From Spirochaetota bacterium (GTDB lineage: Bacteria > Spirochaetota > Spirochaetia > ARS1246), in NCBI GenBank assembly GCA_024275515.1, contig JAJRYZ010000071.1:1-34219 (forward strand): DNA of 34,219 bases. Reading direction: 5' to 3'. This document shows, in pieces, positions 23,527 through 34,219 of this stretch (its first letter is position 1; every line of letters begins with the position of its first letter). Under the pieces are notes generated by a model that saw nothing but the letters and a program-made list of their open reading frames with translations, was not told where the DNA came from and made no database searches. Made by a program: the position numbers and the translations under genes.

Positions 23527-24309
23527 ATGCAACTTGAAATAAGGAATCTTCACGCTACGGTGAAGGGTAAGCCGATACTCGAAGGCGTTGATCTGACGAT
23601 AAGCACCGGAGAGACGCACGCACTGATGGGTCCCAACGGTTCGGGCAAAAGCACCCTCGCCAACGTGCTGCTCGGGCATCCCGACTACGAGGTAACCGCC
23701 GGCGAGGCGCTTCTCGACGGGGAGAGTATTCTCGATCTTCCGACCAACGAGCGAGCGCGCCGCGGGCTTTTTCTCGCTTTCCAGTATCCGGTGGAAGTGT
23801 CCGGAATCACGATCGGGAAGTTCTTGAAACGCGCCACCGAACACATCTATGCCGAGAACGACCACGTTAATCTGTCGCGGTACGTCGCCGACCTCAAGGC
23901 GAATATGGAGTTTCTCGGCATCGACCGGCAGTTCATAAACCGGTATCTGAACGAAGGATTCTCGGGGGGCGAGAAGAAGCGAATGGAAATCCTGCAGATG
24001 CTTATGCTTCGCCCTCGTTTCGCGGTTCTTGACGAGACGGATTCGGGGCTCGATATCGATGCGTTGAAGACCGTGGCAAAGGGCGTCAACAAGCTCATCG
24101 GCGACGGATTCTGCGCGCTCGTCATTACTCACTATCAACGGATACTCGATTATATCCGGCCCGATCAGGTCCACATCCTCTACCGCGGCCGAATCGTCGT
24201 TTCGGGCGGCGGCGAGCTGGTGGAGCAGCTTGAAAAGAAGGGTTACGACTGGGTCAAAGAACGGTACGCCGTCGGGGAGGAGGAGCATGAACACTCGACG
24301 ACAGGTTGA
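23527..24309 (+). CDS. sufC: SufC, Fe-S cluster assembly ATPase
   Basis: 260 aa cytoplasmic ABC-type ATPase. Walker [10 protein letters not shown] is at 35-43, the Q-loop at [11 protein letters not shown], the signature [11 protein letters not shown] at 145-155, and Walker [13 protein letters not shown] at 165-176. ETDSGLD is typical of SufC. It binds SufB and SufD and drives the conformational change needed for cluster assembly on the scaffold. It starts nine bases after sufT with a GGAGAGG site and overlaps sufB by 23 bases. Confidence 0.97.
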
Positions 24310-25687
24310 CATAGACGACTACAAGTACGGTTTCGCGTTTCCCGATAAGTCGGTCTTCAAGACGCCGAAAGGCTTGAGCGAGGCGGTGGTATGCGCGATT
24401 TCGGCGCACAAGGATGAGCCCGAATGGATGCGGCGATACCGTCTTCGTTCGCTCGAGGCCTTTCGTCGCAAACAGATGCCGAATTGGGGCGCCGACATAG
24501 GGGACATCGATTTCGACGGCATCTACTACTACGCCAAACCGGTCGAGGAGCAGCAGCGATCGTGGGATGAGGTCCCCGACGATATCAAAGAGACATTCGA
24601 ACGGATCGGCATCCCCGAAGCCGAACGTAAGTTTCTCTCGGGAGTGGGCGCCCAGTACGATTCGGAGGTCGTTTATCACAATATTCGCAACGATCTCGAA
24701 GAACTCGGTGTGGTGTTTTGCGATCCGGAGACGGCGGTTCGTGAACATCCCGACATCGTGCGTGAGTACTTCGGTACGGTCATACCGTTCGGCGACAACA
24801 AATTCGCCGCGCTCAACAGCGCGGTCTGGTCCGGCGGATCGTTCGTGTACGTGCCGAAAGGGGTCAAAGTGGAGATACCGATCCAGGCCTACTTCCGGAT
24901 CAACTCCGAGAACTTCGGTCAGTTCGAGAGGACGCTGATCATCGCCGAGGAGGACAGCTTTATCCATTATATCGAAGGATGTACCGCGCCGGTCTACACA
25001 ACCGACTCGCTTCATAGCGCCGTTGTTGAAATAATCGCGAAACGCGGCGCCCGGGTGAGATACTCGACTATTCAGAACTGGTCGGGAGATGTGTACAATC
25101 TGGTCACCAAACGAGCGGTGGCGTATGAGGGCGCGACGGTCGAGTGGGTCGACGGAAACATCGGGAGCAAGCGGACGATGAAATACCCGGCGATCTATCT
25201 GATGGGCGAGGGCGCACACGGCGAGATCCTTTCGATCGCGTTCGCAGGAAAAGGGCAGGAGCAGGACACCGGCGGGAAGGCGGTGCATCTCGCCGATAAC
25301 ACCACCTCGATCATCACCTCCAAGTCGATCAGCAAAGACGGAGGAATCGCGAGCTATCGCGGACTGCTCAAGGTGGGGGAGAACGTGCGCAACGCGAAAT
25401 CCCACGTCGTGTGCGACGCGCTGATCCTCGACGATCGCTCCGAAAGCAACACCTATCCGTACATGGAGATCGGTTCCGACGAAGTGTCGGTCGAACACGA
25501 GGCCCGTGTGAGTCGAATCAGCGAGGATCAGCTCTACTATCTGATGAGTCGCGGACTGAACGAGCAGGAGGCGTCGATGATGATCGTCAACGGATTCCTG
25601 GACCCGCTCGTCAAGCAGTTGCCGATGGAGTACGCGGTCGAGCTTAATCGGCTGATCGAACTGGAAATGGAAGGATCGATCGGGTGA
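24287..25687 (+). CDS. sufB: SufB, Fe-S cluster scaffold subunit
   Basis: 466 aa, the usual SufB length. The start [16 protein letters not shown] is preceded by GGAGGAGGAGC and lies inside the end of suf[58 protein letters not shown] and [20 protein letters not shown] are strongly conserved SufB segments; the Cys in EGCTAP is the family's conserved one. It builds clusters in the SufBC2D complex using sulfur delivered through SufU. The stop GTGA overlaps the sufD start. Confidence 0.97.
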
Positions 25688-26979
25688 GCGGCAGACGAAC
25701 GCCCGCGTCGCGTGAGCTCCCCCGGCTCGACGAGATCGAAAGCGCGGCGAAGGAACGATACGAAGAAATGAACTGGCCGACTCCCGAGGAAGAAGAATGG
25801 CGACGAACCGACGTGACGGAGTTCCGCTTCGATGAGTTCGCGCCGTACGCGGTCGAATCTTCGGCGGAACGAGCCGCCTCCGCGCCGTCACCGGTGGTCG
25901 TCGACTCAGGTGTGACGATTCGCTTCGTATGCGGCGACTGCACCGAACTCGACATATCGGCGTCTCTTCGGGACTCCGGCGTGAGTGTGATCGTGGACGG
26001 CGGCGCCGACGGTTTTGACGGGCGATACGCCTCATCCCGCGCCGAGGAGGCGATGCGTCGGCTCCTTCGAAACGCGGTCGACCGACTCGACAACAGACTC
26101 TCGGCGTGGCACTACTCGGGGGTTCGTCACGGACCGTCGATTCATATTCCCGCCGGCGTCTCGGTCGAATTACCCGTCGTCGTGGAGTTCTTCGAAGCCG
26201 GCGCTTTGATGGCGACAAACCCGCACATCTGCCTCGTACTCGAGGAGGGGGCGAGCGCGACGATCGTCCAGGTCGTGAGAAGCGCTGCCGGGGACCGGAT
26301 TCTGTGCAACGCCGGCTTCGATGCGGAGGTCGCGGCGAACGCGCGGCTTTCGGTGGCGGCTATGAACGACCTCGGGAGCGCAACCACGCTGTTTGAGCAC
26401 CGGTCGATCGCTCTCGGTCGCGACGCGGGGCTGAGACATTTCGCCGGGACGTTCGGAGGCGAGCTCGTAAAGACGCGCATCGAGGTTCTTCTCGCCGGCG
26501 CCGGCGCCGAGGCGCGTCTCGACGGGGCATTTCTCGCGAACGGGAACGGGCACATGGACATACGCACGGTTCAGACCCATCGGGCGCCGCACACCTCCGG
26601 CCGGGCGTACTACAAGGGGGCGGTTCGCGATTCGGGTCGTACGGTTTTTCAAGGTCTTATCGACGTCGGAAAAACCGCCGTGCAGACCGACGCGTATCTG
26701 ACCAACAAGAATCTGATGCTGGGTCCCGGGGCCCGGGCCGATTCGATTCCTACGCTTAAAATTCGGACCGACGATGTGAAATGCAGCCACGGTTCGACCA
26801 CGGGCCGTGTCGACGAAAACGAAGTGTTCTACTTGATGAGCCGCGGCTTCGCCCGTGATGAGGCGATGCGTGCGCTCGTCGAGGGATATTTCGAAGAGAT
26901 CGTCCGCCGTGCGGACGAGCGGACGCACGAGCTTCTGATGCGTGCGGTCGTCGCACGTTTGACCGAAAGGAGCTTGTAG
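25684..26979 (+). CDS. sufD: SufD, Fe-S cluster scaffold subunit
   Basis: 431 aa from GTG at 25684, four-base overlap with suf[20 protein letters not shown] is the standard SufD opening. The beta-helix core and C-terminal block [41 protein letters not shown] match SufD and include the Cys/His pair (KCSHG) at the SufB-SufD interface. It completes the scaffold. Ala-rich segments in the middle are typical of GC-rich genomes. Confidence 0.96.
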
Positions 26980-26981
26980 AG

Positions 26982-27224
26982 ATGGGGCGATGGGTCGAGG
27001 CGGCGAGAGTCGATGCGCTCGACGACGTGTGCTCGCAGGAATACTCGCTTCTGTCGGAGGGCGAGATTCGGGACGGAGAGGTCTATTGCCCGAAGCACGG
27101 TTCGCGTTTCGACATACGTTCGGGCGCCGCGAGGAGCCTTCCGGCGTTCAAACCGGTCTCGACGCACGACGTACGCGCAGAGAACGGAACGATATTCGTC
27201 GAAATGGAGGATACGGCGCGATGA
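26982..27224 (+). CDS. Shortened Rieske-like ferredoxin of the suf operon, one ligand missing
   Basis: 80 aa. The start is supported by AGGAG nine bases upstream. ALDDVCSQEYSLLSEGEI and GEVYCPKHGSRFDIRSG correspond to the two cluster loops of small NirD/Rieske ferredoxins found in suf operons. The second loop is intact (Cys36-x2-His39). The first reads Cys17-Ser-Gln19, where the family has Cys-x-His. The protein is also about 20-25 residues shorter than relatives: WVEAARV runs directly into DALDDVC, skipping the usual N-terminal strands. A normal 2Cys-2His 2Fe-2S cluster is therefore unlikely. It overlaps sufS by four bases (ATGA) and is translated in the operon, so it may be degenerate or repurposed. 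Confidence 0.8.
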   Translation: MGRWVEAARVDALDDVCSQEYSLLSEGEIRDGEVYCPKHGSRFDIRSGAARSLPAFKPVSTHDVRAENGTIFVEMEDTAR

Positions 27225-28477
27225 AAAGACGCTCGCAGACGGTCCCATGCGTCGGGTCGCGGTCGATTGAATCGATTCGCGACGATTTCCCTATCTTGCG
27301 CGGAGAGACGGGGCGGGGTATCGCCTATCTCGACAACGCCGCCACGTCTCACAAACCGGCCGTCGTCATCGATGCGGTTCGTTCCTACTACGAAGAGGCG
27401 AACTCCAATGTTCACCGGGCGGTCCACCGACTGGCAACCGAGGCGACAAGACGGTACGAAGAAGCAAGAAAAAAGATCGCCGCGTTTATCGGGGCGCCGT
27501 CGGAACGAAGCATCGTTTTTACGCGTGGAACCACGGAATCGATCAACCTCGTGGCCTCCTCGTGGGGCGGTGAGTTTCTTGAACCCGGGGACGTCGTTCT
27601 CCTTACCGAAATGGAGCATCATGCGAACATCATCCCGTGGCAACTTCTCGCTTCGCGCACCGGCGTGGAACTCGTGTTTCTGCCTTTCGATGCCTCCGGC
27701 CGGCTCGAGCTGGACAGACTTGCCGGACTCTGGTCCGATCGCGTTAAGCTCGTTTCGATGATTCATGTGTCGAACGTCTTCGGCACGCTCAACGATATCG
27801 AATCGGTGATCCGATTCGCACACGATCGGGACGCTCCCGTCCTCATAGACGCTGCTCAAAGCGTTCCTCACGGCCCGATAGACGTCGCTGCGCTCGACGT
27901 GGACTTCCTTGCCTTCTCCGGTCACAAAATGTGCGGACCGACCGGGATAGGCGTTCTGTACGCCAAGGAAGAGCTTCTCGACGCGATGCCGCCTTATATG
28001 GGCGGAGGGGAAATGATACGCGCGGTGTGGCTCGATCGTGCCGAGTGGAACGATATCCCCTACAAGTTCGAGGCGGGAACACCGAACATCGCGGGGGCGG
28101 TCGGGCTGGGCGCGGCGGTCGACTATCTCACGTCGATCGGGATGAGCGATATCCAGGCTTACGAACGGGACCTGTGCGTCTACGCGATCGAGGCACTCTC
28201 TGAAATCGAGGGAGTAACGTTGTACGGTCCGCCGCCGGGCGACGATCGCGAGGCGGTCGTCAGCTTTACCGTCGACGGGGTTCACGCGCACGACGCGGCG
28301 CAAATGCTCGACCGCGAGGGCGTCGCCGTCAGGCCGGGACACCATTGCGCGCATCCGTTGACTCGCAAGCTGGGAGTGCCGGCGACGGTGAGGGCGAGTT
28401 TCTACCTCTATTCCACCTACGATGAGATCGATCGTTTGACCGCCGCGATCGAGAAAGCGAAGTCCTTTTTTATTTGA
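27221..28477 (+). CDS. sufS: SufS, group II cysteine desulfurase
   Basis: 418 aa PLP enzyme releasing sulfur from cysteine as a persulfide. YLDNAATSHKP is the family opening; EMEHHANIIPWQ holds the PLP-stacking His; AFSGHKMCGPTGIGVLY has the PLP lysine (Lys236); RPGHHCAHPL has the catalytic Cys376 in the short loop of group II (SufS) enzymes. The start ATG overlaps the Rieske-like gene stop; the open frame upstream is antisense-like. SufU, 25 bases downstream, is its usual sulfur acceptor. An N-terminal extension of about 20 residues precedes the conserved domain. Confidence 0.96.
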   Translation: MKRRSQTVPCVGSRSIESIRDDFPILRGETGRGIAYLDNAATSHKPAVVIDAVRSYYEEANSNVHRAVHRLATEATRRYEEARKKIAAFIGAPSERSIVFTRGTTESINLVASSWGGEFLEPGDVVLLTEMEHHANIIPWQLLASRTGVELVFLPFDASGRLELDRLAGLWSDRVKLVSMIHVSNVFGTLNDIESVIRFAHDRDAPVLIDAAQSVPHGPIDVAALDVDFLAFSGHKMCGPTGIGVLYAKEELLDAMPPYMGGGEMIRAVWLDRAEWNDIPYKFEAGTPNIAGAVGLGAAVDYLTSIGMSDIQAYERDLCVYAIEALSEIEGVTLYGPPPGDDREAVVSFTVDGVHAHDAAQMLDREGVAVRPGHHCAHPLTRKLGVPATVRASFYLYSTYDEIDRLTAAIEKAKSFFI

Positions 28478-28502
28478 CACCGACAGGGCACGGGGAATCA
28501 CG

Positions 28503-28937
28503 ATGACATTCGACGACCTTTACCAGGAGATAATTCTCGACCACTACAAGCATCCAAGAAACTTCGCCGATCTGAGTGGTCTTTCCGATGTGCACGAGAA
28601 TCCGACGTGCGGGGATTCGCTCAAGCTCGCGGTCGTGGTCTCGGACGACGGTGTGGTTGAGTCGATCCGCTTCGACGGTTCGGGGTGCGCGATAAGCATG
28701 GCTTCGGCGTCGATGATGACCGAGCAGCTTTCAGGCAAGCGGATCGAAGAGGCGCTGGCAATGGTCGGCGAGTTCATCGGCGTCATGCGCGGCGAGAAGG
28801 ACGTTTCCGAGCTCGAGAGGCACGGCGACATAGCCGCGCTCGGCGGTGTCATTCAGTTTCCTCTGCGAATCAAATGCGCGACGCTCGCGTGGCACGCGTT
28901 CGAAAAGAGCGTTGAGAAGGATCATGCGGATCGCTAG
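28503..28937 (+). CDS. sufU: SufU, zinc-dependent sulfurtransferase
   Basis: 144 aa. LYQEIILDHYKHPRNF is the classic IscU/SufU opening. Cys36 in NPTCGD with Asp38, Cys62 in GSGCAIS and Cys125 in RIKCATLAW are the zinc/sulfur-accepting residues. The insertion between Cys62 and Cys125 (VGEFIGVMRGEKDVSELER) marks SufU rather than IscU. It accepts persulfide from SufS and passes it to SufBCD. It is the last gene of the operon. Its TAG stop shares the palindrome CTAG with the stop of the convergent gene. Confidence 0.96.
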   Translation: MTFDDLYQEIILDHYKHPRNFADLSGLSDVHENPTCGDSLKLAVVVSDDGVVESIRFDGSGCAISMASASMMTEQLSGKRIEEALAMVGEFIGVMRGEKDVSELERHGDIAALGGVIQFPLRIKCATLAWHAFEKSVEKDHADR

Positions 28938-29492: not shown

Positions 29493-30542
29493 ATGAGATT
29501 CGAAAAACGGCGACTCGCGGACGCTCGACAAGGATACGCGGTTGCGTCTCTGCGGCTGTGCGGAGATCAACGGATTATCGCGGCGAGCGAGGGCGCAGGA
29601 CCGGTGGTTGTTTTCGAGGGGCGTGAGCTGCAGAGGCGAGTCCTTTTGCAGGGGCCGGGCGGCTGTATGGGGTTTGCCGAGGTCCCGGGGCGTGACGACG
29701 CGTTTTTTATGATCACCCGATTCTATCCCATCTTTCGCGCCGAAAACGCCGGCGTCGATCTGGTTCGACGTTCGCCTCGAGAGCGGTGGGCGTGGGAAGG
29801 AGGTCGCGCGATAGATCTCCCGTTTGTTCACCGCGTCGCGTCGGTTTCCACCTCGGAAGGCGACTATCTTGTGGCCGCCACGGTGTGTGGAGGAAAAGAG
29901 CATCGGGACGACTGGTCGCGGCCGGGGGCCGTGTACGCGTTTGAAATCGACCGCGCTCTCGACCGTGCGTTGACTCCGGTAGTCGTTCTGGAGGCGGTTC
30001 ACCGAAACCACGGACTGTGCCTGGGTATGCTCGACGGGCGGAAAGCTCTTCTCGTCTCCGGAGATGAAGGAGTCGTGGCGCTCGAGGTCGAAGGCGCGCC
30101 CGACGGTGCACGGAGCGACCCCTGGCGCGTGAGCGTCATAATCGATCACCCGGTAAGCGAAGTCGTCCTTTTCGATCTGGACGACGACGGCGAAGACGAA
30201 CTCGTCACGGTCGAGCCTTTTCACGGGAACGAAATGAGCGTTTACAAGCGACTCGGCGGTGCGTGGAAAAAGATCTTCTCGGCCGAGCTCGCCTTCGGAC
30301 ACGGGCTTTCCGCAGGGCGTCTCGGCGGCGAGCCCGCCGTAATCGTCGGCAACCGGGACGGTTCCAAGGACCTCCTCTGCTTCAGGAGCGATACGCAGGC
30401 GCCGCGGTTCGCGATGGAAAGGATCGTCGTCGACCACGGATCGGGAACGGCGGGAACGATATTTCTCGACGCTCCGCCGGGCGGCGTCGTTGCCTCCAAC
30501 GCGGAGCTGCGCGAATACGCGATCTACCTTCCGCAGGAATAG
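29493..30542 (+). CDS. Cytoplasmic FG-GAP/VCBS beta-propeller protein, candidate sugar-modifying enzyme
   Basis: 349 aa from MRFEKRRLADARQGY; GAGGG lies eight bases upstream, and the 37-residue upstream extension has no ribosome site. There is no signal peptide. The protein looks like a beta-propeller: repeated strands, and a calcium-type loop LFDLDDDGEDELVTVEPF at 226-243 as in FG-GAP/VCBS repeats. His/acidic clusters recur at blade loops: HRNHG (170-174), EPFHGNE (241-247), FGHG (268-271), NRDGSKD (287-293), DHGSG (314-318). Such a ring of His-Gly motifs is reminiscent of metal-dependent propeller enzymes such as aldos-2-ulose dehydratase, but that is an inference. It is nine bases upstream of a beta-hydroxyacid dehydrogenase gene and surely cotranscribed. 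The 274-base gap before it holds no gene. Confidence 0.82.
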   Translation: MRFEKRRLADARQGYAVASLRLCGDQRIIAASEGAGPVVVFEGRELQRRVLLQGPGGCMGFAEVPGRDDAFFMITRFYPIFRAENAGVDLVRRSPRERWAWEGGRAIDLPFVHRVASVSTSEGDYLVAATVCGGKEHRDDWSRPGAVYAFEIDRALDRALTPVVVLEAVHRNHGLCLGMLDGRKALLVSGDEGVVALEVEGAPDGARSDPWRVSVIIDHPVSEVVLFDLDDDGEDELVTVEPFHGNEMSVYKRLGGAWKKIFSAELAFGHGLSAGRLGGEPAVIVGNRDGSKDLLCFRSDTQAPRFAMERIVVDHGSGTAGTIFLDAPPGGVVASNAELREYAIYLPQE

Positions 30543-30551
30543 GAGCAACGA

Positions 30552-31418
30552 ATGAGAATCGGATTCATAGGACTCGGAATAATGGGCGGACACATGGCCC
30601 GACATCTGGCGAAACATCATAGGCTGTCCGTCTTTGACGTCGAACGTTCGAAGATCGACGGAATCGAAGGCGTCCGCGGCGCCGACGGGGTTGCGGCGGT
30701 CGCGCGACTTTCGCAGCTCGTGTTCCTTTCGTTGCCTTCTTCCTCGATCGTCGAGGATGTGTGCATCGGCTCCGGCGGGTTGGCGGAAAACCTTGCCGAG
30801 GGCGGCGCGGTCGTGGACACCAGCACGACCGAACCGCTCGTGACGAGGCGGATCGCCGACGTCTTTTCGGCGAAGGGAATCGACTTCCTCGACGCGCCGG
30901 TAAGCGGCGGGGAAGCGGGCGCACGCAACGCCTCGCTTTCGATCATGGTCGGCGGGTCGGCCGAAGTCTTCGAGCGTTATCGGTCCGTGCTCGAGATCGT
31001 CGGTTCCTCGGTCGTCCGGGTCGGCGAAACGGGCGCCGGCGAGGTCGCCAAGTTGGTCAACAACATGATCGTCGGCTCGACTTTCGTGGTTATCGCAGAG
31101 GCTTTCGCGCTGGGAAAGAGCATGGGGCTCGACCTGAAAATGCTCTACGAGGCGATCCGCGGAGGTTGGGCGGGATCGGCGGTGCTCGACGTCGCAGCAC
31201 CCGGCATTATCGAGAGAAACTTCACCCCCGGCGGAAGCGTCGACGTTCTGTTCAAGGACATCGGATACGCGCTCTCGCTCGCGAGAAGTCGCAACGTTCC
31301 CACACCCATGACCGCGCTCGTCGACGAAGTATTCAAAGCCGCGCGCGCCTCCGGCCGCGGATCTCAGGCGCAGCACGTGATTATCCAGATGTGGGAGAAT
31401 CTGCTCGGGCCGGCGTAG
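30552..31418 (+). CDS. Beta-hydroxyacid dehydrogenase (3-hydroxyisobutyrate/tartronate semialdehyde reductase family)
   Basis: 288 aa NAD(P)-dependent enzyme. The N-terminal Rossmann motif is GFIGLGIMGGHMARHL; the substrate loop is FLDAPVSGGEAGA (114-120 DAPVSGG); the catalytic lysine is Lys167 in GAGEVAKLVNNMIVG; the C-terminal helical domain includes LFKDIGYALSLAR. Residue 30 after the second strand is VFDVERSK; Asp there argues for NAD over NADP. Possible substrates are tartronate semialdehyde, 3-hydroxyisobutyrate or related C3-C4 acids, not decidable by sequence reading. It is in a two-gene unit with the propeller protein and converges on the dhaK-dhaL-rpiB operon. Confidence 0.92.
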   Translation: MRIGFIGLGIMGGHMARHLAKHHRLSVFDVERSKIDGIEGVRGADGVAAVARLSQLVFLSLPSSSIVEDVCIGSGGLAENLAEGGAVVDTSTTEPLVTRRIADVFSAKGIDFLDAPVSGGEAGARNASLSIMVGGSAEVFERYRSVLEIVGSSVVRVGETGAGEVAKLVNNMIVGSTFVVIAEAFALGKSMGLDLKMLYEAIRGGWAGSAVLDVAAPGIIERNFTPGGSVDVLFKDIGYALSLARSRNVPTPMTALVDEVFKAARASGRGSQAQHVIIQMWENLLGPA

Positions 31419-31421
31419 CTC

Positions 31422-31448
31422 GCGACGGCGGGATCACGCAACCGTCGC
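31422..31448. terminator. Inverted repeat between convergent operons
   Basis: GCGACGG (31422-31428) and CCGTCGC (31442-31448) form a seven-base stem with a 13-base loop, three bases past the dehydrogenase stop and nine before the isomerase stop. The position suggests a shared terminator, but neither strand has a U tract. Confidence 0.35.
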
Positions 31449-31457
31449 CGGCGCGAC

Positions 31458-31901
31458 CTATTTCTCGTGCCTTTTCGCGTACTCTTCGATGCGCCGTATT
31501 TTCGCCTCACTTCGTCCGCCCGGCCGGTAGGCGTATTGCATCCACGTGCGGATGAGCGCGCGGGCGAGCATAGCACCGGTCACCTGAGCTCCGAACGCAA
31601 TGAGATTGGCGTTGTTGCTCAGCGCGGCTCGTTCGGCCTGATAGACGTCGGTTACCAACGCGCAGTAGACGCCGGGCACTTTGTTGGCCGCTATACTCGC
31701 TCCGATGCCGGTGCCGCACAACACGACGCCCCGGGTATAGTCGCCCGCAGCAACCGCTTCGCCGACGGAGATGACGACGTTAGCGTATATCGGATCGTCC
31801 GATCCGAAATCGGTTACCTCGTGACCGAGCTCTTCGAGCTCCGCCATAATCTCTTGTTTGAGAACCGCCGCGTTCGGATCGCATCCTATCGCCACTTTCA
31901 T
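31458..31901 (-). CDS. rpiB: RpiB/LacAB-family sugar-phosphate isomerase, atypical active site
   Basis: 147 aa from MKVAIGCDPNAAVLKQ; its ATGA overlaps the dhaL stop. CGTGIGASIAANKVPGVYCA is the family signature, with the catalytic Cys62 and Thr64 present. Classical RpiB has Asp-His near residue 9 and a second His before the NAN motif. Here these are Asp8-Pro9 and Ser95-Asn-Asn-Ala-Asn, so both active-site histidines are replaced. The substrate is therefore probably not ribose-5-phosphate. With a dihydroxyacetone-kinase-type pair upstream, a tetrulose-phosphate (erythrulose-4-phosphate) isomerase role is a plausible inference. The symbol marks family membership only. Confidence 0.85.
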   Translation of the reverse strand: MKVAIGCDPNAAVLKQEIMAELEELGHEVTDFGSDDPIYANVVISVGEAVAAGDYTRGVVLCGTGIGASIAANKVPGVYCALVTDVYQAERAALSNNANLIAFGAQVTGAMLARALIRTWMQYAYRPGGRSEAKIRRIEEYAKRHEK

Positions 31902-32542
31902 CGGCACAGCTCCTTCATGGTCTCTCCCATCGATTTCAACAACAAGTAACAGCTTGTTGCGCCGGCGTCGAGCACGCCTCTCGATCGTTCCGCCAGTCTC
32001 GCCGAGCGACCTCTCTTCGCCACAAGATCCCGCGTCGATTTCCATCCCGCTTCGGCCGCGACCAGCATCGAGTCTACCGCTTCCGGTAGGCCGGCGCCGC
32101 GCGCGTGGGCCGTCTCGACGGCGCCGGCCGCCGGCGCAAGAGTGTCGACCATCGTCTTGTCGCCCACCTCGGCTTCGCCGAGCTCGGCGACCGCTTCGGC
32201 CGCGCGCGCGAGCATCGAGGCAAGAACGCCCGCATCGATCAGCTCCACGCGCTTGCTCGCGCGCGCCATGCTTCGAAAAACCGCGCCGTAGAGCGGCCCC
32301 ATCGCCCCGCCGATCTCCATGACCAGCGTCCGGCCGAGAATGTTCAACGCTTCGCTCATTCCGATATCCGCGCCGGCGATCCTGCTCCCGGCCATCGAAA
32401 AACCCTTGTCCATGTTGATTCCATGATCGCCGTCGCCGATCGCGCCGTCGAGTTCGCTCAACGACCCGCGGTTTTCGTGAATGATTTCGATCATACGTTC
32501 GACGATGATCTTGCCGTCGCCGTTGCTGAACCCCGATGACAT
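31898..32542 (-). CDS. dhaL: DhaL, ADP/ATP-binding subunit of a dihydroxyacetone-type kinase
   Basis: 214 aa. LDGAIGDGDHGINMDKGF contains the Asp cluster (Asp32, Asp37, Asp39) that holds the Mg-nucleotide. GDKTMVDTLAPAAGAVETA and GRSARLAERSRGVLDAGAT are the other conserved segments, the latter being the lid over the nucleotide. In PTS-type systems DhaM rephosphorylates ADP on DhaL; no dhaM is in this window, so the pair may be ATP-dependent or DhaM may be elsewhere. It is 20 bases after dhaK with a GGAGGAA site and overlaps the isomerase start. Confidence 0.93.
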   Translation of the reverse strand: MSSGFSNGDGKIIVERMIEIIHENRGSLSELDGAIGDGDHGINMDKGFSMAGSRIAGADIGMSEALNILGRTLVMEIGGAMGPLYGAVFRSMARASKRVELIDAGVLASMLARAAEAVAELGEAEVGDKTMVDTLAPAAGAVETAHARGAGLPEAVDSMLVAAEAGWKSTRDLVAKRGRSARLAERSRGVLDAGATSCYLLLKSMGETMKELCR

Positions 32543-32562
32543 CTTTTCGTTCCTCCGCCCTT

Positions 32563-33567
32563 CTATACCGCCGTTTGGCGCAAACCCGTCGAGTACGCGT
32601 CGAGGTCGATCAAACCTTTGAGCTCACTATCGAGTCTGAGCAGAGTCAACGTGACGCCCATCATTTCGAGACTGGTAAAGTAGTTGCCGACATACGAGCG
32701 ATGGATCGAGATCCCTCTTCGATCGAGGCGCTTCGCGACGTCGTCGAAAAAGATGTATAGTTCCATCGCCGGCGTGGCGCCGAGTCCGCTGACAAGAACG
32801 ACGACATCGTTTCCTTTCTCGAACGGTAGATCGGGAAGCACCACATCGAGGCTCATTCGAGCGAGCTCCGCCGCCGGTTTCAGATCGTCGACGTACATTC
32901 CCGGCTCTCCGTGGTGACCTATTCCCACTTCCATCTTTCCAGGTTCGATGGAGAAGTTCGGCTTCCCGACCGCGGGGATCGTGCAGGGTGTAAGACCGAT
33001 GCCGATGCTTCTACAGTTGTCTATTGTTTTTTTCGCCGTCGCGATTACCTCATCGAGCGTTCCGCCGAGCGCCGCCTTTGCGCCGGCGGCTTTCCACATC
33101 AAGACTTCGCCGGCAACGCCCCTTCGCTTGTCCCGTTCACCGCGTGGTGCGCTGGGAACATCGTCGTTGGCGACGACGCGCTTTATTTCGATCCCGTCGT
33201 CTTCGGCCTCTTCCATCGCCATCTTCACGTTCATGTTGTCGCCTGAATAGTTGCCGTAGAGGACTGCAACGCCCGCACCTCCGTCGGCGGCTCGAATGGC
33301 GTCGTAGAAGGACTTCGCGGTCGGCGAGGTAAAGACTTCTCCCACGGCAACCGCGTCGACAAGATTCCTCCCGATGTATCCGACGAACGCCGGCTTGTGC
33401 CCGCTTCCACCGCCGGTAACGATTCCGACCTTCCCGGGCGCCGGAGCGCCGCGGTACTTGAGGACGCGAGGATTGGATGTGGGAGCGACGATGTCGGAAT
33501 GCGCCCGTACGAACCCGCGGAGCATATCTTCGACTACCAGATCGGGATTGTTGACTATTCGCTGCAT
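32563..33567 (-). CDS. dhaK: DhaK, ketose-binding subunit of a dihydroxyacetone-type kinase
   Basis: 334 aa. GIVTGGGSGHKPAFVGYIG (with the substrate-contacting GSGH), VLYGNYSGDNMNVKMAMEEA and KMEVGIGHHGEPGMYVDDL are hallmarks; the His before GEPG (His219) forms the covalent hemiaminal with the ketose. It lacks the fused DhaL domain of eukaryotic/Citrobacter kinases, which is supplied by the next gene. Substrates may be dihydroxyacetone or a related ketotetrose. A GGAGGAAG ribosome site precedes the ATG. First gene of the dhaK-dhaL-isomerase operon. Confidence 0.95.
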   Translation of the reverse strand: MQRIVNNPDLVVEDMLRGFVRAHSDIVAPTSNPRVLKYRGAPAPGKVGIVTGGGSGHKPAFVGYIGRNLVDAVAVGEVFTSPTAKSFYDAIRAADGGAGVAVLYGNYSGDNMNVKMAMEEAEDDGIEIKRVVANDDVPSAPRGERDKRRGVAGEVLMWKAAGAKAALGGTLDEVIATAKKTIDNCRSIGIGLTPCTIPAVGKPNFSIEPGKMEVGIGHHGEPGMYVDDLKPAAELARMSLDVVLPDLPFEKGNDVVVLVSGLGATPAMELYIFFDDVAKRLDRRGISIHRSYVGNYFTSLEMMGVTLTLLRLDSELKGLIDLDAYSTGLRQTAV

Positions 33568-33609
33568 ACGCTTCCTCCGATGCGGCTATTGTGTGTCGCG
33601 CAAAACCGA

Positions 33610-33674
33610 CACGTCGGCGAGGCCGACGCCGTGTACAATCGGCGCTTCCGAATTGCTCTTGATCCGGAAGCAGT
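33610..33674. promoter_or_regulatory. Divergent control region with two dyads
   Basis: Between dhaK and the secreted-protein gene two inverted repeats occur: GTCGGC-GAG-GCCGAC (about 33613-33627), flanked by ACAC/GTGT, and GCTTCCG...CGGAAGC (about 33646-33673). They may be operators for the dha operon or hairpins. No convincing -35/-10 pair was found. Confidence 0.35.
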
Positions 33675-33690
33675 CTACTATGAACACGAG

Positions 33691-34219
33691 ATGAACCGAA
33701 ATAGCGTTCTTGCCGTCGCGCCGTTGCTTCTCGTTTTCGTGCTTTCGTCATGGGTGGCGGCGGAATCGCCCCACCCGGAACGAGACTTCGCCCCACGCGC
33801 GGGAGTCGCTCCGGTCGACTCGCTCGAGGATCTTATCGCCAATCCGGCCAAGATCTTTTTTCATGTTGAATCGTGGGAGGGCGAAGGTAGCTACATCATA
33901 CGGTCGGAGACGGACGTGCACGCGGTCTACCCGATCGGCGTTGAGGCGTTTCTGAGTGCGCTACTCGATTTCGCGAATATGAAGAACATCTTCCCGCGCG
34001 TGGATGAGAGCCTGATCGAGTATGCTTCGGAGGACCCTTTCGATAAGCATTCGGTATGGCTTCATGTGAAAATCAAGGTCGCCGGTTTCGGCGCCGAATA
34101 CGTCTACGTCACCGATTTCTGGACCGAAAAGTACGGCAACGGGTATCTTCAGAAGTACCGTCTCAACCGGTCGCCGGACGGGACCTTCTACGAATTGGAC
34201 GGCAGTTGGTATCTCGAAG
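33691..34219 (+). CDS. Secreted protein, possible START/SRPBCC-like fold (C-terminally incomplete)
   Basis: The frame is open to the end of the window, giving 176 residues so far. It starts MNRNSVLAVAPLLLVFVLSS with a clear Sec signal peptide (cleavage about VAA-ES). The mature part has IFFHVESWEGEGSYIIRSE, YPIGVEAFLSALLDFANMKN, HSVWLHVKIKVAGFGAEYVY and FWTEKYGNGYLQKYRLNRS, a pattern of helix and long antiparallel strands as in START/polyketide-cyclase-like lipid-binding folds; this is an inference from pattern only. An ATG eleven bases upstream opens a four-codon frame whose TGA overlaps this start. No good ribosome site is seen, so the start is less secure. Confidence 0.75.
   Translation, partial: MNRNSVLAVAPLLLVFVLSSWVAAESPHPERDFAPRAGVAPVDSLEDLIANPAKIFFHVESWEGEGSYIIRSETDVHAVYPIGVEAFLSALLDFANMKNIFPRVDESLIEYASEDPFDKHSVWLHVKIKVAGFGAEYVYVTDFWTEKYGNGYLQKYRLNRSPDGTFYELDGSWYLE

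Follow-up and report, generated by a model that had tools for sequence, protein, structure and literature searches.

Introduction

The ability of anaerobic gut and soil bacteria to use ascorbate is usually judged by the presence of the ulaABCDEFG gene set. Its decarboxylase, UlaD (3-keto-L-gulonate-6-phosphate decarboxylase, a member of the OMPDC suprafamily), is a TIM-barrel protein. In the tetronate pathway (LtnD/DenD, OtnI, OtnK, OtnC) a sugar acid is oxidised, phosphorylated and decarboxylated to a ketose phosphate. Other related systems are the D-threitol/erythrulose pathway (DthD, DerK, DerI), with the EryI-type RpiB of Brucella, and aldos-2-ulose dehydratase (AUDH; PDB 4a7k), a propeller enzyme acting on keto sugars. 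In addition, a WD40-like enzyme of a Cupriavidus ascorbate pathway is reported to catalyse a benzilic-acid rearrangement of 2,3-diketo-L-gulonate in which the carboxylate migrates (Stack et al. 2020, JACS 142:1657). In the present study we analysed contig JAJRYZ010000071.1 of the Spirochaetota bacterium assembly GCA_024275515.1 (34,219 nt, positions 1-34,219; hereafter the window), which encodes a His-rich beta-propeller protein next to a beta-hydroxyacid dehydrogenase, a two-subunit DhaK-DhaL ketose kinase and an RpiB-type isomerase.

Our analysis makes it probable that the propeller represents a new family of decarboxylases of beta-keto (3-keto) sugar acids, which replaces UlaD in ascorbate operons and acts in the window within the pathway described below. 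It also seems rather likely that this seven-bladed protein has taken the place of UlaD in many Clostridia, spirochaetes and Betaproteobacteria, and that, on at least two occasions, it was incorporated into DhaK-DhaL modules converting sugar acids to erythrulose phosphate. Searches of open-licence papers revealed no account of a propeller acting as a decarboxylase in ascorbate operons.

Comparison with the described systems revealed both common and distinctive features. The propellers share with UlaD the place beside UlaE, UlaF and UlaB in ascorbate operons, and the same type of reaction is predicted for them. However, the folds differ (seven blades versus a TIM barrel), no sequence relation was detected (the window propeller matches neither an OMPDC-type TIM barrel nor the UlaD model NF009832), and the two proteins are mutually exclusive across genomes. 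As in the D-threitol/erythrulose pathway and in Brucella, a DhaK-type kinase is accompanied by an isomerase resembling the RpiB-type D-erythrulose-4-phosphate isomerases. In contrast, the window module lacks DthD and would generate erythrulose from a sugar acid through the action of its dehydrogenase and propeller. The class II aldolase-family decarboxylase and the DUF1537 kinase of the tetronate pathway are both absent from the module. The Cupriavidus enzyme is likewise a predicted propeller of an ascorbate pathway, but its operon partners are different.

Propeller genes in ascorbate operons

Ninety-two propeller loci were read using the E. coli Ula proteins as probes. This revealed UlaE at 68 loci, UlaG at 67, UlaF at 50, UlaA at 41, UlaC at 38 and UlaB at 37; UlaD was detected at none of the 92. 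The identities of UlaE, UlaF, UlaG and UlaA were checked with NCBIfam models. At locus L022, for example, the scores were 617.8 bits for UlaG (cut-off 306), 364 for UlaE (cut-off 200), 364 for AraD/UlaF (cut-off 257) and 398 for the IIC component of the ascorbate phosphotransferase system (PTS; cut-off 380). The propeller genes lie inside the operons, separated by short gaps from ulaF, ulaE, ulaB or ulaG, and the compact clostridial gene order is UlaG-UlaC-UlaA-UlaB-propeller-UlaF-UlaE. Control spirochaetes with ordinary ula operons carry UlaD at the corresponding site, beside UlaE or UlaF.

Since decarboxylation is the only step missing from the complete ula operons, and the propeller is their only recurrent gene without an assignment, the simplest reading is that the propeller is a 3-keto-L-gulonate-6-phosphate decarboxylase. 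An earlier note on this DNA had found no place for the propeller in known schemes and suggested that it might dehydrate or isomerise the substrate. The first statement was not borne out, as relatives of the protein occupy the place of UlaD in ascorbate operons; the second finds no support, because the UlaD-replacing position points to decarboxylation.

Several loci (L017, L026-L029 and L054) have other partners, including UlaE, an FGGY sugar kinase, and an oxidoreductase that resembles either 2-hydroxyacid dehydrogenases or epimerases. This setting, too, suits a 3-keto sugar acid as the propeller substrate. At L017 and L026-L029 the propeller occurs with UlaE, mostly together with the FGGY kinase, and without UlaG or UlaD; a 2-hydroxyacid-dehydrogenase-like gene is also present at L026 and L027. 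These loci may encode a route from an aldonate via 3-keto-gulonate-6-phosphate. Two further regions (L054:8932-11032 and L072:8743-11035) contain genes of a tripartite ATP-independent periplasmic (TRAP) transporter, the propeller, and a member of the NAD-epimerase family similar to D-erythronate dehydrogenase (DenD), with an FGGY kinase also present at L054; possibly, they represent a third sugar-acid route in which the propeller takes part. In several ascorbate operons of Clostridia (L082, L091, L102), the gene directly 3' of the propeller is HAD-family-like.

Mutual exclusion of the propeller and UlaD

Thirty-eight propeller-bearing genomes were searched whole for UlaD. There was no match in 31 of them, and five contained only relatives of 30-35% identity, as is to be expected for hexulose-phosphate synthase and other related proteins. 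The remaining two (G025, with locus L017, and G030, with L016) encode UlaD-grade proteins, 46-47% identical to E. coli UlaD, outside the propeller operon.

So that the propeller was not a selection criterion, UlaG was searched in 296 genomes of Spirochaetota and 341 of Clostridia. A close UlaG (at least 62%) was present in 14 Spirochaetota, of which four carried the propeller without UlaD and ten carried UlaD without the propeller; in all ten, UlaD was located within about 5 kb of UlaG. All eight UlaG-positive Clostridia had the propeller and lacked UlaD (two of them were already known from the propeller scan). The pooled table thus comprises 12 genomes with the propeller only, none with both proteins, none with neither and 10 with UlaD only (Fisher p = 1.5e-6, ignoring relatedness). 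A genome with a distant UlaG-like protein (G162:C1:822893-823840; 37%), devoid of both UlaD and the propeller, was left out of the table. In the window genome the UlaG search found no close UlaG.

Structure and conservation of the propeller protein

The AlphaFold2 (AF2) model of the window protein is a confident seven-bladed propeller, with a pLDDT (per-residue confidence) of 91.7 and a pTM (predicted template-modelling score) of 0.90. In Pfam the protein gave only a sub-threshold match to FG-GAP_3 (E 0.037) and in NCBIfam none, and by these searches it belongs to no named family. Its nearest PDB folds are generic propellers (the EPTP domain of LGI1, CRTAC1 and ITFG2), which reflects likeness of fold only, and a PDB sequence search yielded no real relative; the best single-sequence match, 1yqn, was judged to be due to chance. 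The protein starts with a sequence unlike a signal peptide.

Relatives were sought with a four-row alignment in a genome set with a single representative of each species, a 12-row alignment being too diverse for a pattern search. At least 350 matches were obtained, and the best 80 of the 350 come from Clostridia, Erysipelotrichia, Betaproteobacteria, spirochaetes and a few other groups. Among the spirochaetes, 11 other genomes encode homologues with 26-38% identity. A scan of genome contigs with the single protein gave no match, nor did a tblastn search of plasmids with two propellers.

Fourteen positions are invariant across the 92 propellers, among them Y15, M59, W141, four histidines (H113, H173, H244, H270) and two arginines (R114, R288). 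The recurring His-Gly loops described in the earlier note are therefore real: H113-R114, H173-G174, H244-G245 and H270 do not vary in any of these 92 homologues. In the strand map of the AF2 model, the seven innermost strands start at Y15, M59, H113, H173, S222, H270 and G318, and E33, D140/W141, G193, H244, R288 and N336 lie at or just after the ends of the second strands. Because inner-strand starts and second-strand ends share one face of a propeller, the conserved residues should, judging by strand order, encircle the entrance to the central channel. Modelling had been proposed as a check on the His motifs and, as far as strand order in the model tells, they map to one face, an outcome that does not refute the earlier reading of a module. 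A metal bound by these histidines may be required for activity.

The family motif EPFHGD/N matches the segment E-x-FHGN-x(3)-VY of AUDH, and the Pfam model AUDH_beta_propeller (PF22301) weakly matched 2 of 30 family members (best E 4.5e-4), the window propeller not being one of them. AUDH differs in that it has 900 residues with further domains (a cupin fusion), whereas the window protein consists of a propeller only (349 aa). Full-length similarity between AUDH and the family is non-significant (E 0.6-0.9), and the predicted reaction is different.

Organization of the five-gene module

The features of the module are as follows.

29493-30542, + strand: propeller protein, 349 aa; seven-bladed beta-propeller of an unnamed family, predicted to be a beta-keto sugar-acid decarboxylase (open reading frame, AF2 model, family context)
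30552-31418, + strand: beta-hydroxyacid dehydrogenase, 288 aa; HIBADH / tartronate-semialdehyde-reductase superfamily, predicted sugar-acid (aldonate) 3-dehydrogenase (Pfam)
31419-31457, no strand: convergent intergenic gap of 39 bp with a weak hairpin; terminator-like matches not clearly above shuffles
31458-31901, - strand: atypical RpiB/LacAB isomerase, 147 aa; predicted to be of the D-erythrulose-4-phosphate isomerase type (motifs, model scores)
31898-32542, - strand: DhaL, 214 aa; nucleotide-binding subunit of a dihydroxyacetone-kinase-type ketose kinase (TIGR02365, GDGDHG motif)
32563-33567, - strand: DhaK, 334 aa; ketose-binding subunit, predicted to bind erythrulose or dihydroxyacetone (Dak1)

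All five open reading frames (ORFs) are intact and form two converging units, in which the propeller and dehydrogenase genes are 9 bp apart, and DhaK, DhaL and RpiB are tightly packed, with a 4-bp overlap between DhaL and RpiB. No transporter was seen adjoining the module. Directly upstream there is an apparent SUF-like iron-sulphur cluster (23527-28937, + strand), with SufC-, SufD-, Rieske-, SufS- and SufU-like ORFs in this order. On the other side, an ORF (33397-34219, + strand) runs past the end of the window; its frame opens within the opposite-strand DhaK gene, so that the real start is probably later, and its later part resembles a secreted or membrane START-like protein.

The dehydrogenase contains the domains NAD_binding_2 (8e-42, 143 bits) and NAD_binding_11 (5e-31, 108 bits), both above the Pfam cut-offs. 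DhaK matches Dak1 (5.5e-110; 367.6 bits, cut-off 31.4), and its GHHGEPG motif aligns with DhaK of solved structures, including the ketone-binding His. DhaL matches Dak2 (6e-46) and TIGR02365 (169.8 bits, cut-off 138.3). DhaM (TIGR02364) was detected in none of five module genomes (G000, G039, G056, G014 and G347), the E. coli control being positive; DhaK-DhaL therefore probably use ATP directly, and a PTS-type DhaKLM system was rejected.

The isomerase belongs to LacAB_rpiB (1e-42). It retains the catalytic Cys (CGTGIG), but DHxG is changed to DPNA, the ring-opening His to Ser, and the GR-H motif is replaced. RpiBs of related modules carry changes of the same kind, while a second RpiB of the window genome keeps the standard motifs. 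The isomerase has an SNNA motif in common with 5ifz. In view of these replacements and of a score below the cut-off of the rpiB equivalog TIGR01120 (101.3 bits, cut-off 138.65), a plain ribose-5-phosphate isomerase was rejected. The module RpiBs scored higher with the model of the D-erythrulose-4-phosphate isomerase DerI than with the rpiB equivalog (124 versus 101 bits in the window; 145 versus 115, 183 versus 158 and 172 versus 153 in the others), and the order was reversed for the second RpiB (99 versus 144). Loss of the ring-opening His is in keeping with a phosphorylated substrate that is unable to form a ring. In both G056 and G299, a GolD/DthD-family (threitol-type) dehydrogenase, scoring over its cut-off, lies next to the kinase, as in D-threitol use. 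In the context of the erythritol route of Brucella, a DhaK-type kinase and an RpiB-type isomerase acting on erythrulose have been described (PMC5992420).

All five genes occur together in two other spirochaetes, with different orders and orientations. Interleaved compared with the window, they read HIBADH-RpiB-DhaK-DhaL in G039 and HIBADH-RpiB-DhaL-propeller in G056. In a third genome, G014, propeller-HIBADH is placed on one contig and RpiB-DhaL-DhaK, in the window order (61, 49 and 71% identity), on another. The propeller, HIBADH, DhaK and DhaL are also neighbours in Propionivibrio soli (L056), apparently with TRAP-transporter-like genes nearby, and in a soil proteobacterial metagenome-assembled genome (L061). 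The dehydrogenase is conserved at L013, L014, L015, L056 and L061, and the DhaK relatives of the module are 60-71% identical. A further Propionivibrio locus (L104:1414-16200) shows both module types side by side: the propeller, UlaG, UlaE, UlaF, FGGY and a short-chain dehydrogenase/reductase, together with HIBADH, a split transketolase and a DhaL fragment.

On the tree of 92 propellers, the DhaK context requires at least three changes and is found in one spirochaete group and in two cases within the betaproteobacterial ascorbate-type propellers. The partnership has thus arisen more than once (at least twice on this tree), and therefore one propeller chemistry should serve both the ascorbate and the DhaK contexts.

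These results agree with most of what the earlier note had read from the DNA: (i) two convergent short operons of five genes, (ii) a beta-hydroxyacid dehydrogenase, given its two NAD-binding domains, (iii) an RpiB that is atypical, unlike the second RpiB of the same genome, (iv) a ketose kinase and isomerase of the erythrulose type, a reading that fits the GolD/DthD-family dehydrogenase adjoining related DhaK-DhaL-RpiB sets, and (v) a recurring carbohydrate module, with five genes co-occurring in three genomes and four in two Betaproteobacteria. The search of other spirochaete genomes that it proposed also confirmed that the two operons co-occur.

Discussion

The following pathway can be envisaged for the window. 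The dehydrogenase would oxidise an aldonate, probably a pentonate, at C3 (C3 is also the position oxidised by 6-phosphogluconate dehydrogenase, a member of this superfamily). The propeller would then remove CO2 from the 3-keto acid, i.e. it would perform the same chemistry as in ula operons on another sugar acid. DhaK-DhaL would phosphorylate the resulting ketose with ATP, presumably after the decarboxylation, and the modified RpiB would convert the ketose phosphate into an aldose phosphate. Of the possible carbon skeletons, the following series fits best: D-pentonate -> 3-keto-pentonate -> D-erythrulose -> D-erythrulose-4-phosphate -> D-erythrose-4-phosphate -> pentose phosphate pathway. Gene content, co-occurrence, fold, invariant residues and the exclusion of UlaD are computational results, whereas the decarboxylation, the need for a metal, oxidation at C3, the pentonate and the order in which kinase and decarboxylase act are predictions drawn from them. 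Erythrulose is the favoured ketose, and pentonate the favoured acid, because of the tetrulose-type changes in RpiB, the DerI ranking, the DthD-like neighbours and the Brucella parallel.

Several observations weigh against a decarboxylase acting in this pathway. As 3-keto acids can lose CO2 without an enzyme, the lack of UlaD is no proof that the propeller performs this step, and kinship among the genomes weakens the exclusion statistic. At some loci (L025, L038, L080) neither a Ula nor a Dha partner of the propeller was recognised. The window dehydrogenase scored below every NCBIfam equivalog cut-off (261 bits versus 397 for tartronate semialdehyde reductase, 192 versus 292 for HIBADH, 159 versus 350 for L-threonate dehydrogenase), and some of its relatives, such as L-threonate dehydrogenase, oxidise C2 and not C3. 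All module RpiBs are under the DerI cut-off of 240 (124.5 bits for the window protein). Moreover, five spirochaetes in which the propeller search gave no match carry the close DhaK subtype (60-70% identity), so that the two operons are not obligate partners and the kinase unit can exist by itself.

The main rival to the erythrulose/pentonate route is a C4 route, in which a tetronate is converted via 3-keto-tetronate to dihydroxyacetone (or is phosphorylated first), DhaK-DhaL yield dihydroxyacetone phosphate, and RpiB has a separate function. Dihydroxyacetone is the best known substrate of DhaK-DhaL, no RpiB lies near the betaproteobacterial DhaK loci L056 and L061, and L-threonate dehydrogenase is in the superfamily of the window enzyme (at the 159 bits given above). 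However, RpiB is part of the module in all four spirochaetes, would be useless with dihydroxyacetone phosphate and shows tetrulose-type residue changes; we therefore consider the C4 route possible, though rather unlikely. A chance adjacency of the propeller-dehydrogenase pair and an unrelated DhaK-DhaL-RpiB unit would agree with their separate convergent transcripts and with the DhaK relatives that occur without a propeller. This is largely refuted by the interleaved orders in G039 and G056, the two betaproteobacterial clusters and their separate places on the tree, and appears very improbable.

Concerning the propeller itself, it could isomerise, epimerise or dehydrate keto sugar acids in a manner similar to the fungal AUDH propeller, as the earlier note had proposed in part, with decarboxylation being spontaneous or occurring elsewhere. 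The PF22301 matches, the segment shared with AUDH and the chemical lability of 3-keto acids are in line with such a role. It is nevertheless unlikely, since UlaE and UlaF already cover the isomerisations of the ula route, leaving only the decarboxylase missing, and the exclusion of UlaD and the propeller is complete in 22 genomes. Less probable still is kinship with, or an action like that of, the Cupriavidus WD40-like enzyme, although both belong to the same area of metabolism, share a predicted propeller fold, and carboxylate migration is a chemical neighbour of decarboxylation. The propeller operons carry UlaG, UlaE and UlaF, which act on ascorbate-6-phosphate and on the products of 3-keto-L-gulonate-6-phosphate decarboxylation, and not on a branched acid. 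In addition, among 399 genomes of the order of Propionivibrio (taken as Burkholderiales), the family profile (E <= 0.01) matches only the genome on which the search was centred and none of the 398 others.

If the propeller is indeed a decarboxylase, this would close the gap in ascorbate operons without UlaD, assign a role to a family represented by at least 350 matches in the genome collection, and add a fold to those of known decarboxylases. It would also allow better prediction of which bacteria use vitamin C and related sugar acids.

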